Below, piece after piece: positions 5,280 through 22,828 of a DNA stretch of 64,000 nucleotides (positions are counted from its first letter, which is position 1; the number at the start of each line of letters is the position of its first letter). Source of the DNA: Ignavibacteria bacterium. GTDB lineage: Bacteria > Bacteroidota > Ignavibacteria > Kapaibacteriales > UBA4661. The stretch covers positions 62,001 through 126,000 of the forward strand of contig JACVZY010000090.1 of the NCBI GenBank assembly GCA_014654705.1, read 5' to 3'. The notes below the pieces were generated by a model. It did not search any database. It saw nothing but the letters and a program-made list of their open reading frames with translations, and had not been told where the DNA came from. A program made the position numbers and the translations under genes.

Positions 5280-6239
5280 TTAAGCGAAACACTTCTTGAG
5301 AAAGGCGAGAACTGCTTTGTGTGCGTCTTCTGCCATTTCTTTGCCGTACTTAGGATTGCTCGGATTCGCAAAAGCATGGTCAGCGTCGTACATTTTTACT
5401 TCGATTGGTTTGCCTGCGGCTTTGACTGCGGCTTCAAATTTCGTTGCTATTTCGGGTGTAATCCATTTATCCTGCTTTGCGAAGATGCCTAGTGTTGGAG
5501 CATTCATAGCAGCAAGTTTCTTCGCGTCCATTTCAGGCATACCGTAGTAAATCACGCAGCCCACGGCTTGCTTGCCGACTGCCAGTGAAGCCTGATGCGA
5601 CCAGCCGCCGCCAAAGCACCAACCGATGGTTGCTATTTTGGCATCGTTACCAACATATTTTTGAAAGGCTTCGATAATTGCCTTGGAGCGCTCGGGCTTG
5701 TTTGCTTGCATATACTTTCCTGCATCGGCAGGTGTCGTAGCCAATTTGCCGTCGTAGAGGTCAAGAGCGATAACCCGTGCGCCTGTCTCCTCGCCAAGTT
5801 TGTCGGCTTCTTGCTTAATGTAGTCGTTCAAGCCCCACCATTCGTGGATGACGAAAATAACATTTTTGGTGTCTTTTGCGGGTTTGATTTCATAACCTGT
5901 GCACTCTGTTCCATCGGCTGCTTTTACTGTAACCGCTGTGCCTTTTGCCATAAACGCAAATGGAAGTGGCTCTTCGTGCTTGTTGACAAATGCTTGGTCG
6001 TTTGTGAACGCTGCGAATTGTGTCGTTGCGTGGTTATTTGTGGTTTCGCCGTTCAGTGCCTTGCTTTCGGAAGCACTTTCAACAGAGCAGCAGGAGTGCT
6101 GCGCTGTGGCTTTTTTTGCGGCTGCTTTTGTGGTCTTCACTTTGGGTGTTGATGCGAGTGGTGATTTGGCAAATGCGGGCTGCAAAACAATACCCATGAC
6201 AAGGGCAAACGGCAGAATGACTTTTGTAGTGCGATTCAT
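5280..6239 (-). CDS. Exported dienelactone hydrolase-family protein
   Basis: 319 residues from ATG 6239, chosen because it begins a signal peptide (MNRTTKVILPFALVMGIVLQ, cleavage near PAFA). A start further upstream would bury it. A Lys/Ala-rich linker with a Cys pair (HSCC, residues 48-51) leads to an alpha/beta-hydrolase domain at about 95-319. The dienelactone-hydrolase triad is visible: C208 in GWCFGGG, D257 in KQDKWI and H288 in DADHAFANP. The family hydrolyses lactones or esters; an exported form with a Cys nucleophile is reported in many Bacteroidota, but the natural substrate is unknown. It lies downstream of the chemotaxis receptor (52-base gap) and upstream of the small membrane protein. 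Confidence 0.88.
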   Translation of the reverse strand: MNRTTKVILPFALVMGIVLQPAFAKSPLASTPKVKTTKAAAKKATAQHSCCSVESASESKALNGETTNNHATTQFAAFTNDQAFVNKHEEPLPFAFMAKGTAVTVKAADGTECTGYEIKPAKDTKNVIFVIHEWWGLNDYIKQEADKLGEETGARVIALDLYDGKLATTPADAGKYMQANKPERSKAIIEAFQKYVGNDAKIATIGWCFGGGWSHQASLAVGKQAVGCVIYYGMPEMDAKKLAAMNAPTLGIFAKQDKWITPEIATKFEAAVKAAGKPIEVKMYDADHAFANPSNPKYGKEMAEDAHKAVLAFLKKCFA

Positions 6240-17536: not shown

Positions 17537-18421
17537 ATGCGCATACTTCTCACAGGTACAGCTGGGCGTATCGGACGGGCGATTCACGTCCGTTTGTCGC
17601 CAGTGTACGATATCATCGGTTTGGACAGGTCGCCCGCCTCGACGGTAGATATCGTCGGTGATGTTACAAACAGCGCACTACTGAGTAGTTTGTGTGCGGG
17701 AGTAAATGCAATCGTTCATACGGCGGCTCTTCATGCTCCGCACGTAGGGATTGTTTCTGACGCAGAGTTTGAGCGCATCAATGTTGAAGCTACACAGAAA
17801 TTGATTGAAACGGCGATTGCCTGCCGTGTGCCGCGTATTATCTTTACCAGCACAACAGCGCTCTACGGCTCTTCCGCTCGTGCGTCGGATTCGGCTGTAT
17901 GGGTTGATGAAAACACACACGCCCATCCTCTCACCATTTACCACCGCACGAAACTTGCTGCCGAGGCATTGTTGCAAACCGCAGCGAAGGAGTATGGGTT
18001 GGCGGTGCGAATCCTCCGAATGTCGCGCTGTTTTCCAGAGCCTGCACCCCAAATGGCGGTGTACCGTTTGTATCGCGGTGTTGATGCACGTGATGTGGCG
18101 GATGCACACGCATTGGCGTTGGAGGATGTCGGTGAAGGCTGTAACACTTATATTATCTCTGGCACGACACCATTTCAGAGAGATGATTGCTCTGCGCTCT
18201 GGCACAGTGCCCCAACAGTTCTGGCGCGGTGTGTACCGGAACTTGTGCGGGATTTTGCCCGTCGTGGGTGGGAACTTCCCGCACGGATTGACCGCGTATA
18301 TGACTCTTCAAAGGCACAAAGGGAGCTTGGCTGGGAGCCACGTTTCGGATATAGCAATGTACTTTCACTCTTTGACCAATGTCTGTCGGAAGTTCTCCCA
18401 GCAGTACGATTGCGCCCTTGA
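17537..18421 (+). CDS. NAD-dependent epimerase/dehydratase family protein
   Basis: 294 residues, ATG 17537. An extended SDR with the nucleotide loop TGTAGRIGRAIH at residues 6-17, HTAALHAPHVG, the active-site Thr/Ser in FTSTTALYG, and YHRTK carrying the catalytic Tyr and Lys. It likely acts on a nucleotide sugar, but the substrate cannot be read. The C-terminal half (RVYDSSKAQRELGWEP) is typical of UDP-sugar epimerases. No sugar-pathway neighbours. Confidence 0.9.
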   Translation: MRILLTGTAGRIGRAIHVRLSPVYDIIGLDRSPASTVDIVGDVTNSALLSSLCAGVNAIVHTAALHAPHVGIVSDAEFERINVEATQKLIETAIACRVPRIIFTSTTALYGSSARASDSAVWVDENTHAHPLTIYHRTKLAAEALLQTAAKEYGLAVRILRMSRCFPEPAPQMAVYRLYRGVDARDVADAHALALEDVGEGCNTYIISGTTPFQRDDCSALWHSAPTVLARCVPELVRDFARRGWELPARIDRVYDSSKAQRELGWEPRFGYSNVLSLFDQCLSEVLPAVRLRP

Positions 18422-18545
18422 AGTTGCCGGACAAATCTCTTCCTTTGCAGACAAATTCTCCGTGTTTGCCGATTCGTTTTTCCCGTCTCTACTTTTTTTT
18501 CGTTCTTTGTGAAGTTTACAATTCTCCCACGTCACTTCACATGCA

Positions 18546-19472
18546 ATGTACGCAGTAGAAACTAACGGTTTAACGTATAGCTTCAGAGCTGGCTTCGCAA
18601 AGCGCACGGGTTCTGTGACTCCTGTGTTGCACAATATTTGCCTCCAAGTTCCGAAAGGCTCTATTTACGGATTTTTGGGGCAAAACGGGGCAGGAAAAAC
18701 CACCACACTCCGCCTCATTCTGGGGTTGCTCAGGCGGCAGCAAGGAAGCATTACCATTTTGGGTAAATCCTTCGAGGAAAATCGCATAGCTATTCTTCGT
18801 GATATCGGTTCGCTCATTGAATCACCGTCGCTGTATGCACATTTGACCGCGGCGGAGAATCTTACCATTTTTCAAAAAATCCATCAGGTGCCGATAAAAC
18901 GTATTGGAGAAGTGCTGGATTTGGTTGGGCTTGTCGGTACGGGCAAGAAGAAAGCCGGGCAGTTTTCGCTTGGTATGAAGCAGCGCTTGGGGCTGGCTAT
19001 CGCGCTTCTCAATAATCCCACACTCCTTATCTTGGACGAACCCACGAATGGGCTTGACCCGAATGGCATTATCGAAATGCGTGAGCTTTTGAAGCATCTC
19101 CATCGTGAACAGGGCATTAGTATCTTGATTTCAAGTCATCTTCTGGCGGAAATTGAGCGTCTCGTAACGCACGTCGGCATCATCCACAAAGGAGAACTAG
19201 TCTTTCAAGGGACGCTTCCGGAACTCATGATGCGCCGTGACCAAAACTCTGCACTTGTCCTCGAAACCAGCGACAAGCAATCTACAATGCGCCTTCTGGA
19301 ACAAATGCACCTCAGCCCGGTACTGGAAGCAAATGCGGTCGTGCTGCCTTTTTTACCAAAGGAAATCGTTGCTGACGTAGCACGTACTCTGGTTCAGAAC
19401 AATATTTCTGTGTACGGTATCGCACGGCGAAATGATGATTTGGAAACGATTTTTATGAATGTCATCAAGTAA
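18546..19472 (+). CDS. ABC transporter ATP-binding protein (NatA/CcmA-like)
   Basis: 308 residues, ATG 18546. Walker A GQNGAGKTTT near 44-53, signature FSLGMKQRLGLA near 139-150, and Walker B LLILDEPTNGLDPNG near 159-173 are complete, with an H-loop His in SSHLL. The C-terminal extension of about 90 residues is typical of ATPases that pair with ABC-2 permeases. It drives the permease encoded 130 bases downstream. The neighbouring LytS/LytTR genes suggest a bacitracin- or NatAB-like stress export unit (inference). Confidence 0.95.
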   Translation: MYAVETNGLTYSFRAGFAKRTGSVTPVLHNICLQVPKGSIYGFLGQNGAGKTTTLRLILGLLRRQQGSITILGKSFEENRIAILRDIGSLIESPSLYAHLTAAENLTIFQKIHQVPIKRIGEVLDLVGLVGTGKKKAGQFSLGMKQRLGLAIALLNNPTLLILDEPTNGLDPNGIIEMRELLKHLHREQGISILISSHLLAEIERLVTHVGIIHKGELVFQGTLPELMMRRDQNSALVLETSDKQSTMRLLEQMHLSPVLEANAVVLPFLPKEIVADVARTLVQNNISVYGIARRNDDLETIFMNVIK

Positions 19473-19477
19473 GAAAG

Positions 19478-19590
19478 CGTTGAGTTTTGAGTGCTGATTG
19501 TTGAGTTTTAGGAACTTGCAACACGAGCATTCGTCGAACTCATAGCATTTTTTTCGCACGCTCAAAATTCAGCACTCAACACTCAAAACT
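19478..19590. repeat. Inverted GAGTTTTGAGTGCTGA-type repeats between ATPase and permease
   Basis: TTTTGAGTGCTGATTGTTGAG (19485-19505) recurs as an inverted, imperfect copy at 19561-19590. The bases between may form a long hairpin or be remnants of an intergenic repeat. It could modulate ATPase to permease read-through. Confidence 0.5.
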
Positions 19591-19602
19591 ATCTTAAAAA
19601 AT

Positions 19603-20376
19603 ATGCATCTTCTTTCTGTCTTTCAAAGCGAATGGCTGAAAACGAGGCGTAGTCTTGCTTCGTGGTTGGTTATTGTGGGTGGATTGTTTACTCCCACTAT
19701 AATTTTCCTTGCCAGAATGCGGCAACCGAAAGCGCTGCCGACCGTGTACCAAACGCCACACTTCTGGCAAACTGTTTGGAATCAATCATGGGAATCTATG
19801 GCGATGTTTATGTTTCCAATGGGAATCATCATGGCGACGGGCTTAATTACCCAACTAGAGTTCAAAAACAATACGTGGAAACAGCTTCATACCACACCAC
19901 AGAGATTCTCAGTCATTTATTGTATGAAACTCTTTATTGTGCTTCTCATGCTTCTGCAGGTATTTGTCGCGTTCAATGCTTGTTTGTATATTTTCACGGT
20001 CTTACCCGTTCTTCTGGTGAAGGAAGTTGCATACCCCGCAGCAGCACTTGACTGGATGCTCTTTCTACGTGGCAATGTCAGTTATTTTATAGACTGTCTG
20101 CCGATTGTAGGGTTGCAGTTTTTGCTCGGAATGCACTTCAAAAACTTCCTCGTACCGCTAGGTTTAGGTTTTTTGCTGTGGATAGTTGCACTGACGGGAA
20201 TGCAATGGGAATACAACTACATTCTGCCATACAGTTACGCAATGCTGGATTATTTAGTTAATACGGGACGCAAAATCACCGTTAATGCGGATATACACAC
20301 GTTTTCGATGCTATACTTTGTAGCGTTCGCATTGGTAGGATACGCGATGTATATTTGGAAAAACGACAAAGGTTGA
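19603..20376 (+). CDS. ABC-2-type transporter permease
   Basis: 257 residues, ATG 19603. Six hydrophobic segments are visible (near 18-36, 62-82, 105-130, 145-165, 185-205 and 232-252). The N-terminal motif SVFQSEWLKTRRSLASW and the loop EFKNNTWKQLHTTPQ resemble lantibiotic-immunity and NatB-like ABC-2 permeases. It sits in the inner membrane and probably pairs with the ATPase at 18546. Confidence 0.88.
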   Translation: MHLLSVFQSEWLKTRRSLASWLVIVGGLFTPTIIFLARMRQPKALPTVYQTPHFWQTVWNQSWESMAMFMFPMGIIMATGLITQLEFKNNTWKQLHTTPQRFSVIYCMKLFIVLLMLLQVFVAFNACLYIFTVLPVLLVKEVAYPAAALDWMLFLRGNVSYFIDCLPIVGLQFLLGMHFKNFLVPLGLGFLLWIVALTGMQWEYNYILPYSYAMLDYLVNTGRKITVNADIHTFSMLYFVAFALVGYAMYIWKNDKG

Positions 20377-20430
20377 TAAAATAAAGCCAGAAGCCGCATC
20401 GGACTGAGCAATCCCCATTCTTCGCGCACT

Positions 20431-21486
20431 ATGAAAAAACAATTTATTGTCGCATTGCACTTTGCCTATTGGTTGTGTTATGTGCTGCTCTTGGCAGTTA
20501 TCCTGATGTTGGTGTTTATGCAAATAGCATTTAAGGGAAAAGGTCTCTCGCCGCAACATATCATGTTTATAGAGTTGTTTTGTGTTATGACCTGTCTTCC
20601 TGCGGTGTTGTCGTTCTATGGAGCGTACGCAATGCTTATGCCTAGGTTTTTAGCCAGAAAAAAGTTTTTGCGCTTGGGCATTGCCGGGTTTGGAATGGTT
20701 ATGTTTATTAGCCTGTTGACCGCATTATTGATAGCGCTTTTTTTTGGTCAGCATTTTGTGTTTGTCGGAACGATGAAAGGAGTGCTGGAGCAGATGGTTT
20801 TGCCCGCTCTGCTTGCCTGTATTCACAGTGTTTTGGGATTAGTCCTGAGCGGCTTTGTCAAGTGGTTCGATGAAAACCGTACTAAAACTGCATTGCTGGA
20901 GAAAAATTTTCAAATGGAACTTGCACTCATCAAAGCACAACTCGACCCGCATTTTCTCTTCAATACGCTCAACAACATTGACATTCTCATCGAAAAAGAC
21001 AGTGTGCGAGCTTCTGCCTACCTGAACAAACTCTCCGACATTATGCGGTTTATGCTCTACGAAACTAAAGCCGCCACAATTCCTCTCCCGTCCGAACTGG
21101 CATACATTGAAAAATATATTGACCTCCAAAAAATACGTACTGCGAACCCAGATTTTGTTCGTTTCGAGGTTGTGGGTAATGCAGTCGCGTGGAATATCGC
21201 ACCGATGTTATTTATGCCCTTTATCGAAAATGCGTTCAAGTTTGCCGAACATAAAAAGACAGGTACAGCTATCAGCATTTCCTTTCATCTTCGGGCAGAA
21301 CAATGTCAATTTGAATGTAGTAATGCTTATACGGACAATATCTCTGCTCTTGAGGGGCAAAGCGGCTTAGGCAGCAACTTGATACGGAGGCGATTAGAAT
21401 TGCTGTACCCGAAAGCACATGAACTCAGTATTAGCACTGAAAACAACATTTACCGTGTTCGATTGATGCTAAGACTGATACCTTGA
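20431..21486 (+). CDS. LytS/YehU-type sensor histidine kinase
   Basis: 351 residues, ATG 20431. Four hydrophobic segments (about 8-30, 44-72, 82-106 and 120-142) are followed by the His_kinase domain: the phosphoacceptor H174 in QLDPHFLFNTLNN, then an ATPase domain with MPFIENAFKFAEH and GLGSNLIRRRLELLYP. There is no large periplasmic sensor domain, so it probably senses in the membrane, as in kinases that watch an ABC transporter. It lies 54 bases after the permease and upstream of the cognate LytTR regulator. Confidence 0.94.
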   Translation: MKKQFIVALHFAYWLCYVLLLAVILMLVFMQIAFKGKGLSPQHIMFIELFCVMTCLPAVLSFYGAYAMLMPRFLARKKFLRLGIAGFGMVMFISLLTALLIALFFGQHFVFVGTMKGVLEQMVLPALLACIHSVLGLVLSGFVKWFDENRTKTALLEKNFQMELALIKAQLDPHFLFNTLNNIDILIEKDSVRASAYLNKLSDIMRFMLYETKAATIPLPSELAYIEKYIDLQKIRTANPDFVRFEVVGNAVAWNIAPMLFMPFIENAFKFAEHKKTGTAISISFHLRAEQCQFECSNAYTDNISALEGQSGLGSNLIRRRLELLYPKAHELSISTENNIYRVRLMLRLIP

Positions 21487-21505
21487 AATTGATCCGAAGA
21501 CAGAG

Positions 21506-21543
21506 AGTCTGAGTGTTTCTAGTGGAGGTGCTCAGACTTTTTT
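21506..21543 (+). terminator. Terminator between kinase and regulator genes
   Basis: AGTCTGAG (21506-21513) pairs with CTCAGACT (21531-21538) around a 17-base loop and runs into TTTTTT. It would make regulator expression partly independent of the kinase. Confidence 0.75.
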
Positions 21544-21570
21544 CATTGCTAAATACCGTATATTTGCCGA

Positions 21571-22263
21571 ATGAAAACAACCTGTATCATCGTCGAGGAT
21601 GAACCTCTTGCAATGGAGCGCACCGCAGGCTATGTGGCAAAAATCCCAACGCTGCATTTGCTCGCCACATTTGATAATGCGCTTGATGCCTTTGTGTTTC
21701 TGAAGGCGAACGCTGTAGATGTTCTCTTTTTGGATATCAACCTCGGCGAACTTTCGGGGCTGCAACTGCTTGAATCTATGCGTTTGCAGTGTCGTGTCGT
21801 TCTCACAACAGCGTACTCGGAATATGCGCTCAAAGGGTTCGACCTGAACGTTACCGATTATCTCCTGAAGCCCTTCACCTTTGAACGTTTCTTGCAGGCT
21901 GTGGACAAGGCGCAACACCTCAAGCCGCAGAAACACGAAGCAGAGCAAAAAACGTTTGCTTTTGTCAAAACCGAAAATCGCTTGGAAAAAGTTGTTTTCA
22001 CCGATTTGCTCTACATTGAGGGAATGCGTGATTATCGCAAAATTCACCTGGTAGGAAAAACGATACTGACGCTTCAAACCTTCAGCGAGTTAGAACAAGC
22101 AATTCCACCAAGCGTAGCTTGCAGAGTGCATAAATCCTATATGGTTGCACTGGATACCATTGAAACCATAGAGCGAGATCGGATTCGACTCAGGGGCGTG
22201 GAGAATCTGCTGATTCCGATTTCAGAGACATATAAGCAACATTTTTTTTCGAGGATTCATTGA
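21571..22263 (+). CDS. LytTR-family response regulator
   Basis: 230 residues, ATG 21571. The receiver domain (1-115) keeps the acidic pocket ED at 9-11, phosphoacceptor D55 in LFLDINLG, and K100 in YLLKPF. Residues about 135-230 are the LytTR DNA-binding domain (ENRLEKVVFTDLLYIEGMRD, VHKSYMVAL, and the C-terminal LLIPISETYKQHF). It binds DNA as a regulator, probably of the ABC transporter genes (inference). Confidence 0.95.
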   Translation: MKTTCIIVEDEPLAMERTAGYVAKIPTLHLLATFDNALDAFVFLKANAVDVLFLDINLGELSGLQLLESMRLQCRVVLTTAYSEYALKGFDLNVTDYLLKPFTFERFLQAVDKAQHLKPQKHEAEQKTFAFVKTENRLEKVVFTDLLYIEGMRDYRKIHLVGKTILTLQTFSELEQAIPPSVACRVHKSYMVALDTIETIERDRIRLRGVENLLIPISETYKQHFFSRIH

Positions 22264-22294: not shown

Positions 22295-22828
22295 ATGACC
22301 AACGTTTTTATCCTTCCCGGACTCGGTAACTCTGGTGAGCAGCACTGGCAGACAATCTGGCAAACCTTGTATCCTGAATGGCAACGTATTATGCAAGACG
22401 ACTGGGAGACGCCATTATGCGCCGATTGGGTGCGTCGTATTGACGAAACCCTTGCAGCAGTGTCAGAGGGAACGTCTGTTTTGGTGGCGCATAGCTCCTC
22501 ATGTGTGGCAGTGGCGCATCTGGCGAAAATGACCACACACCGCATCAAAGGCGCTCTTCTTGTTGCACCGTCCGACCCGCTTGGCGCTGCCTATCCACCC
22601 GGACCGCAGGGCTTCGCGCCTGTGCCGCTTGTGCGTCTGCCGTTTCCGAGTATTGTTGTTGCATCGGAAGATGATGAGTACATTGCACTCGAACAGGCAC
22701 GTCAGTATGCCGAAGCGTGGGGAAGCCGCTTTGTGAATATCGGCGCCAAGGGGCATATCAACTCCACATCTGGGCTTGGTGAGTGGCGTGAGGGCTTGGC
22801 GTTGCTGGAAACGCTCATTGCTTTATGA
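22295..22828 (+). CDS. RBBP9/YdeN-family alpha/beta hydrolase
   Basis: 177 residues from ATG 22295; a TTG at 22283 would add four residues. The order FILPGLGNSGEQHWQTIW, the nucleophile Ser in VAHSSSCVAV, the acid in ASEDDEY and the His in KGHINSTSGLGEW is the RBBP9 triad. Serine hydrolases of this family act on small esters or peptides, and the bacterial substrate is unknown. It is cytosolic. Confidence 0.92.
   Translation: MTNVFILPGLGNSGEQHWQTIWQTLYPEWQRIMQDDWETPLCADWVRRIDETLAAVSEGTSVLVAHSSSCVAVAHLAKMTTHRIKGALLVAPSDPLGAAYPPGPQGFAPVPLVRLPFPSIVVASEDDEYIALEQARQYAEAWGSRFVNIGAKGHINSTSGLGEWREGLALLETLIAL

Follow-up and report, generated by a model that had tools for sequence, protein, structure and literature searches.

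The NatKR system of Bacillus subtilis is composed of a LytS-type sensor kinase and a LytTR response regulator. Other transporter systems that come close to such a module are BceRS-BceAB, whose permease has a large extracellular domain, and LanFEG, which contains two permease subunits, LanE and LanG. In BtsSR-btsT and YpdAB-yhjX, a LytS-type kinase and a LytTR regulator likewise have a transporter gene as their target (PMC5552118; PMC10653868; the papers cited here by PMC number were available in part, and the statements drawn from them are limited to those parts). In the LytTR Regulatory Systems (LRS), the LytTR regulator is accompanied by a membrane inhibitor. Some LRS are linked to ATP-binding cassette (ABC) transporter genes, and their direct repeats mostly consist of 9-bp units separated by 12-bp spacers, often lying 10 bp ahead of the -35 element (PMC6193735). 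For AgrA, the binding sites are two direct repeats that immediately precede its promoters (PMC4227749). In this work we analyzed a stretch of 64,000 nucleotides (hereafter the window, to which all coordinates refer unless stated otherwise) from the genome of an Ignavibacteria bacterium (5.72 Mb in 118 contigs), in which genes for an ABC transporter ATPase (abcA), an ABC-2 permease, a LytS-type kinase and a LytTR regulator follow each other. The sequence comparisons make it likely that this locus is a LytTR-activated exporter operon, the regulatory half of which is well supported: the exporter is ordinary but well conserved, and has a sensor, a switch and a putative landing site alongside.

The original prediction listed the four genes in this order, and all four open reading frames (ORFs) were found as described and confirmed by Pfam (Table 1). 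It also advised to look for LytTR direct repeats upstream of position 18546. Indeed, such repeats are present at 18423-18473, with units 21 bp apart. When the 220 nt upstream of the ATPase gene were compared among four members of the genus, the best 40-nt block was 18444-18483, with 91 identities out of 120; 500 dinucleotide shuffles averaged 62.2 and reached no more than 68, a control in which shared descent is not modelled. A 9-bp unit recurs after 21 bp inside this block, and a third, weaker unit (GTTGCCGGA), read by eye, lies another 21 bp upstream. By sequence, the 9-bp units, the 12-bp spacers and the position near the target promoter are those of a LytTR site, and the 21-bp geometry fits the published spacing of LytTR repeats (PMC6193735). 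In all four genus members, the motif (G/T)TNTTTG, recognized by eye, is located 17-18 nt past the 40-nt footprint, and may be part of the ABC promoter.

We then evaluated the 21-bp spacing. Among 31 spacings examined by plain self-similarity, 21 bp scored highest for three of the four species, with 21, 22 and 2 out of 1000 shuffles scoring as well. With a half-site matrix built from the four genus members, 21 bp came first of 36 spacings in each of them and none of 400 shuffles was as good, a result that is partly circular. The genome G307 (locus L087), whose ATPase is 52% identical, was not included in the matrix; there too, 21 bp ranked first of 36 spacings with none of 400 shuffles as good, although this test is only semi-independent because the repeats had been noticed by eye beforehand. 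Screening of both strands of the whole window identified the site as the top 21-bp pair, with a score of 24.9 versus 18.3 for the next one. Finally, a sequence-only model made from five sites gave, by construction, 33.6-37.1 bits at the four orthologous sites, which are training data. None of the other places listed for the ten genomes exceeded 17.7 bits, with 150 of up to 1748 first-look candidates scored per genome. No second copy was detected in the own genome, either by BLAST of the region (nothing better than E 0.23) or by the sequence model (150 of 1376 candidates).

Conservation of the module was studied in a family sample of 10 genomes, the own genome included, and a phylum sample of 395 genomes. 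The permease had a match in four of the family genomes (the window's own, G007, G008 and G004) and, at 1e-20, in 13 genomes of the phylum sample. Named relatives found with it are encoded by a metagenome-assembled genome (MAG) of Candidatus Kapaibacterium (79% identity), two Ignavibacteria bacterium MAGs (67% and 55%) and an Acidobacteria bacterium MAG (49%). The order ATPase-permease-kinase-regulator is the same in G007, G008, G004, the acidobacterial MAG (locus L055) and G307. Genome G003 encodes the kinase (62%) and the regulator (70%) but was excluded from the count of ABC pairs, as the contig breaks off 34 bases ahead of the kinase gene. In the five remaining family genomes there was no permease match, and kinase identity was at most 34% among the best matches listed. 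A search for the ATPase at E <= 1e-60 was negative for six family genomes (G003 included), with no genome known to match among them.

In total, 15 loci were compared: those of the window, G007, G008, G004, the acidobacterial MAG and 10 phylum genomes outside the genus. A LytS/LytTR pair is located within about 5 kb of the ABC pair in 13 of them, window included. One exception is L088, which lacks such a pair; the other, L089, lacks it too but is cut at a contig end. One family (f22) supplies five of the 13, apart from L090, which also belongs to f22, and these are therefore not independent. By chance, 10 kb would contain about 0.04 His_kinase matches, given 22 in 5.72 Mb, a figure that applies to the own genome only. 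The LytTR-like repeats upstream and the pairing of the two-component system (TCS) with the ABC genes at these loci make it very probable that the window regulator controls this transporter.

The proteins themselves have what a LytS/LytTR two-component system needs at the sequence level, namely a PF06580 kinase with the phospho-acceptor histidine and the N box, and a regulator with the receiver aspartate and a LytTR domain. His174 and the N-box residue Asn267 of the kinase are invariant in all seven aligned sequences, and E9, D10, D55, T80 and K100 of the regulator receiver in all eight. The kinase had been predicted to belong to the LytS class with four transmembrane (TM) segments and without a periplasmic domain, which is borne out by PF06580, the hydropathy profile and the lack of a further Pfam domain. 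Its hydrophobic segments span residues of about 15-33, 44-69, 87-105 and 122-140, separated by loops of roughly 10-17 residues, and the structure model (mean predicted local distance difference test score, pLDDT, of 66.4) contains four long N-terminal helices. Pfam detected no separate sensor domain. A kinase with four TM segments and no Pfam-known sensor domain probably reads its signal in or at the membrane.

Together, these features suggest the following circuit. The four-TM kinase would sense a membrane-borne or membrane-perturbing signal and, judging from the conserved residues, would phosphorylate the LytTR regulator at Asp55. Once phosphorylated, the regulator would bind the direct repeats of 21-bp spacing that immediately precede the ABC promoter, a site delimited by comparative sequence analysis, and, given the gene order, would activate the ATPase, the permease and, through read-through, the kinase gene. 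In the window species and G007, the regulator gene probably has its own promoter behind a terminator, so that the level of the regulator would stay basal during induction of the exporter and the kinase. A guess based on gene order thus becomes a testable circuit, whose site and regulator are named and whose target is conserved, in a lineage for which we know of no genetic system. As the genome contains 22 such kinases, confirmation of the site and its spacing would make it easier to find the targets of the others. Literature searches combining LytTR, LytS and Bacteroidetes, or LytTR, ABC transporter, natAB and histidine kinase, or directed at LytTR direct-repeat binding sites in Bacteroidetes, retrieved no paper, with most subscription journals outside the coverage.

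Table 1. Position and supporting evidence of the features of the locus.
Feature	Position	Strand	Evidence
Putative LytTR binding site: GTTGCCGGA (18423), TTTGCAGAC (18444), TTTGCCGAT (18465); start-to-start distance 21 bp	18423..18473	+	
GTTCTTTG, tentatively a -7-like element of the ABC promoter, 28 bp past the final repeat	18502..18509	+	read by eye
ABC transporter ATPase, 308 aa	18546..19472	+	PF00005 (ABC_tran), 1.4e-30
Inverted pair of heptad (TTGAGTN) arrays, strong hairpin without T tract	19470..19596	.	folding, repeat search
ABC-2 permease, 257 aa, with about six TM segments and without a large extracellular domain	19603..20376	+	PF12730 (ABC2_membrane_4), 8.2e-15; hydropathy
LytS-type sensor kinase, 351 aa, four TM segments, no periplasmic domain	20431..21486	+	PF06580 (His_kinase), 6.7e-23
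Intrinsic terminator-like hairpin and T run	21506..21544	+	folding
TATATTTG, -7-like, 4 nt before the regulator ATG	21559..21566	+	sequence read
LytTR response regulator, 230 aa	21571..22263	+	Response_reg, 2.1e-16, and LytTR, 2.2e-14 (Pfam)
Serine hydrolase, possibly the last gene of the unit	22295..22828	+	PF06821, 5.7e-54

Several observations weigh against a regulator-controlled exporter operon. The shuffles used for the footprint leave common descent out of account. Self-similarity in G004 is led by 12 bp, and at 21 bp 11.3% of the shuffles are as good. At the acidobacterial locus the motif is weak (20 of 400 shuffles as good, 21 bp ranking third), and it is not present upstream of abcA in any of the nine other distant loci, L088-L096, though seven of these have a TCS nearby. 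At L092-L096, where the TCS is divergent, the sequence repeated at 21 bp has another core, GTTCATC/GTTGGTC, but the choice of this second core followed inspection of the sequences, and its strict pattern missed two of the five loci. Moreover, with 22 His_kinase and 36 LytTR matches in the own genome, another regulator could bind the putative site. The same richness could mean that the kinase and the regulator act elsewhere and are mere neighbours of the ABC genes; however, the pairing is kept in 13 of the 15 loci and a conserved site lies upstream of abcA, which makes this explanation very improbable.

Concerning the distant loci, a whole-locus scan of L088-L091 found no motif above the threshold. 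Counting in favour of the operon, the second core of L092-L096 faces abcA in three of the five loci; it faces the kinase gene in two, and five of the eight same-strand GTTNRTC pairs that lie 9-44 bp apart are at 21 bp. Apart from these repeats, all five loci contain a conserved small ORF of 57-68 codons, starting with MKKL, just upstream of abcA, possibly encoding a small membrane or signal peptide.

The substrate of the transporter can be approached through its relatives. As weakly indicated by the nearest ATPase family, the most likely task of the ABC-2 transporter is to export a lipophilic or peptidic compound or to clear it from the membrane. Our favoured reading is an exporter that is activated through LytTR and handles a membrane-active compound. 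A tentative refinement of the exporter operon, with less than even chances, is that it is a peptide-induced immunity or detoxification transporter for lantibiotics or other peptide antibiotics, similar to LanFEG or BcrAB. TIGR03740 (lantibiotic protection) is the best NCBIfam model for the ATPase (253.7 bits) and for all six relatives scanned (244.0-260.2 bits), the permease weakly matches the MutE and MutG models (3.7e-05 and 7.2e-04), and the kinase is of the intramembrane type. Nevertheless, every score remains below the curated cut-off, which is 309.75 bits for TIGR03740, while the permease reaches 23.2 of 145.2 and 19 of 117.2 bits. In addition, a single permease gene is located between the ATPase and kinase genes, whereas LanFEG, with which the nearest ATPase family is shared at that sub-threshold level, has two; and no peptide biosynthesis gene is present among the six neighbours scanned with Pfam, the rest of the window not having been searched for one.

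The original prediction also saw a resemblance to NatAB-NatKR, which would make the locus a sodium or uncoupler stress module. The gene classes match those of the B. subtilis system (ABC ATPase, ABC-2 permease, LytS-type kinase and LytTR regulator), but the resemblance does not extend to the permease. NatB is described as having a large extracellular domain (PMC11466899), whereas the window permease is a 257-aa PF12730 protein without one, as judged from hydropathy and a helix-only model of low confidence (AlphaFold, mean pLDDT only 52.6), and we regard such a stress module as highly unlikely. The permease profile had no match to solved structures up to E = 1. The lack of a large extracellular domain (Pfam, hydropathy) also led us to discard a BceRS-BceAB system. 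BtsSR-btsT is different in that BtsS is a 7-TM pyruvate receptor (PMC5552118), while the window kinase has four TM segments and its putative target is an ABC-2 transporter. The locus shares with the LRS the direct repeats with 12-bp spacers upstream of a promoter (PMC6193735), but was rejected as a member of that group because a histidine kinase and a receiver domain take the place of the membrane inhibitor. A further idea, which we consider unlikely, is that the permease is the partner of the sensor, with the four-TM kinase reading the working state of the small ABC-2 transporter through membrane helices. If true, this would be flux sensing without the large extracellular domain of the Bce type, in a module that is found phylum-wide as well as in at least one MAG with the label Acidobacteria.

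According to the original prediction, a terminator between the kinase and regulator genes and an inverted repeat between the ATPase and permease genes would allow separate dosing of the parts. The former is a hairpin of -21.2 kcal/mol ending in six Ts, and none of 200 shuffles was as good. Against it, a simple terminator scan missed it, as its loop exceeds the limit of that scan, and the three terminator-like matches which the scan did find in the region are fewer than the shuffle mean of 4.5. The sequence TATATTTG that follows the hairpin occurs five times in the window, counting both strands. It resembles the -7 element of Bacteroidota promoters, which is its probable role here, and its distance to the ATG would give a near-leaderless regulator mRNA. 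In G007, where the gap between kinase and regulator genes is 1571 nt, the same TATATTTG-N4-ATG arrangement is present, and a similar stem and T run ahead of the regulator gene was recognized by eye. However, the kinase and regulator genes overlap by 4 bases in G008, G003 and G004, which leaves no room for a terminator, and by 32 in G307. Separate control of the regulator would therefore belong to the sub-lineage of the window species and G007, and this part of the proposal stands with that restriction. The long gap of G007 contains an AraC-type gene (HTH_18, DUF6597) and a 143-aa ORF without Pfam match (L031, 8480-9882), just upstream of the terminator-like sequence. The AraC-type protein had no match at 1e-10 in the window genome, in a search without positive control.

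The inverted repeat between the ATPase and permease genes is real, with 36-nt arms that are 83% complementary, and consists of heptad arrays at 19479-19506 and 19561-19590. Its role as a purpose-built dosing element is doubtful, though. It forms a very stable RNA hairpin (-42.3 kcal/mol; 0 of 200 shuffles as good; z -5.1), and at the acidobacterial locus heptad arrays with a related unit (AGTCTTG/AAGACTC; 5475-5527 and 5951-5984 of L055), also in inverted orientation, border the same gap. However, it lacks a T tract, and hence is not an intrinsic terminator, and it is absent from G007, G008 and G004, the three congeners with a readable gap, which measures 43, 31 and 5 nt, respectively, compared with 130 nt here. 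Similar short heptad pieces occur elsewhere in the own genome, where the heptad pair pattern is found 16 times versus 7 for the reversed control. Since L055 holds further heptad arrays, the shared gap position may be due to chance, or it may reflect a preference of the arrays for that gap. Intergenic heptad repeats have been described in other bacteria (PMC4679880). One heptad piece of the own genome (contig C51 of G000, 154813-154851) is located, in frame, within a gene for a class I aminoacyl-tRNA synthetase (L051, within 1-1599), whose 533-codon open frame (tRNA-synt_1 and Anticodon_1) runs across it.

As for the surroundings of the module, an epimerase gene upstream ends at 18421. A PADLOC search gave thirteen partial, mostly ATPase-domain matches to the ABC protein and none to the other four proteins, and a function in anti-phage defence was rejected. 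A known RNA element was likewise rejected, as at the gathering score Rfam detected only a tRNA in the window and nothing in the loci of four relatives. The hydrolase gene (PF06821) adjoins the 3' end of the regulator gene in G007 and G008 and was not found in the 15 kb fetched of the G004 locus. In G003 it lies about 2.9 kb downstream, with an XRE-IrrE gene (HTH_3 and Peptidase_M78) and a PIN-domain gene located in between (L050, 1772-5934, minus strand). Just before this hydrolase gene there is a fragment resembling the C-terminus of the regulator (residues 203-230), as would be left after an insertion.

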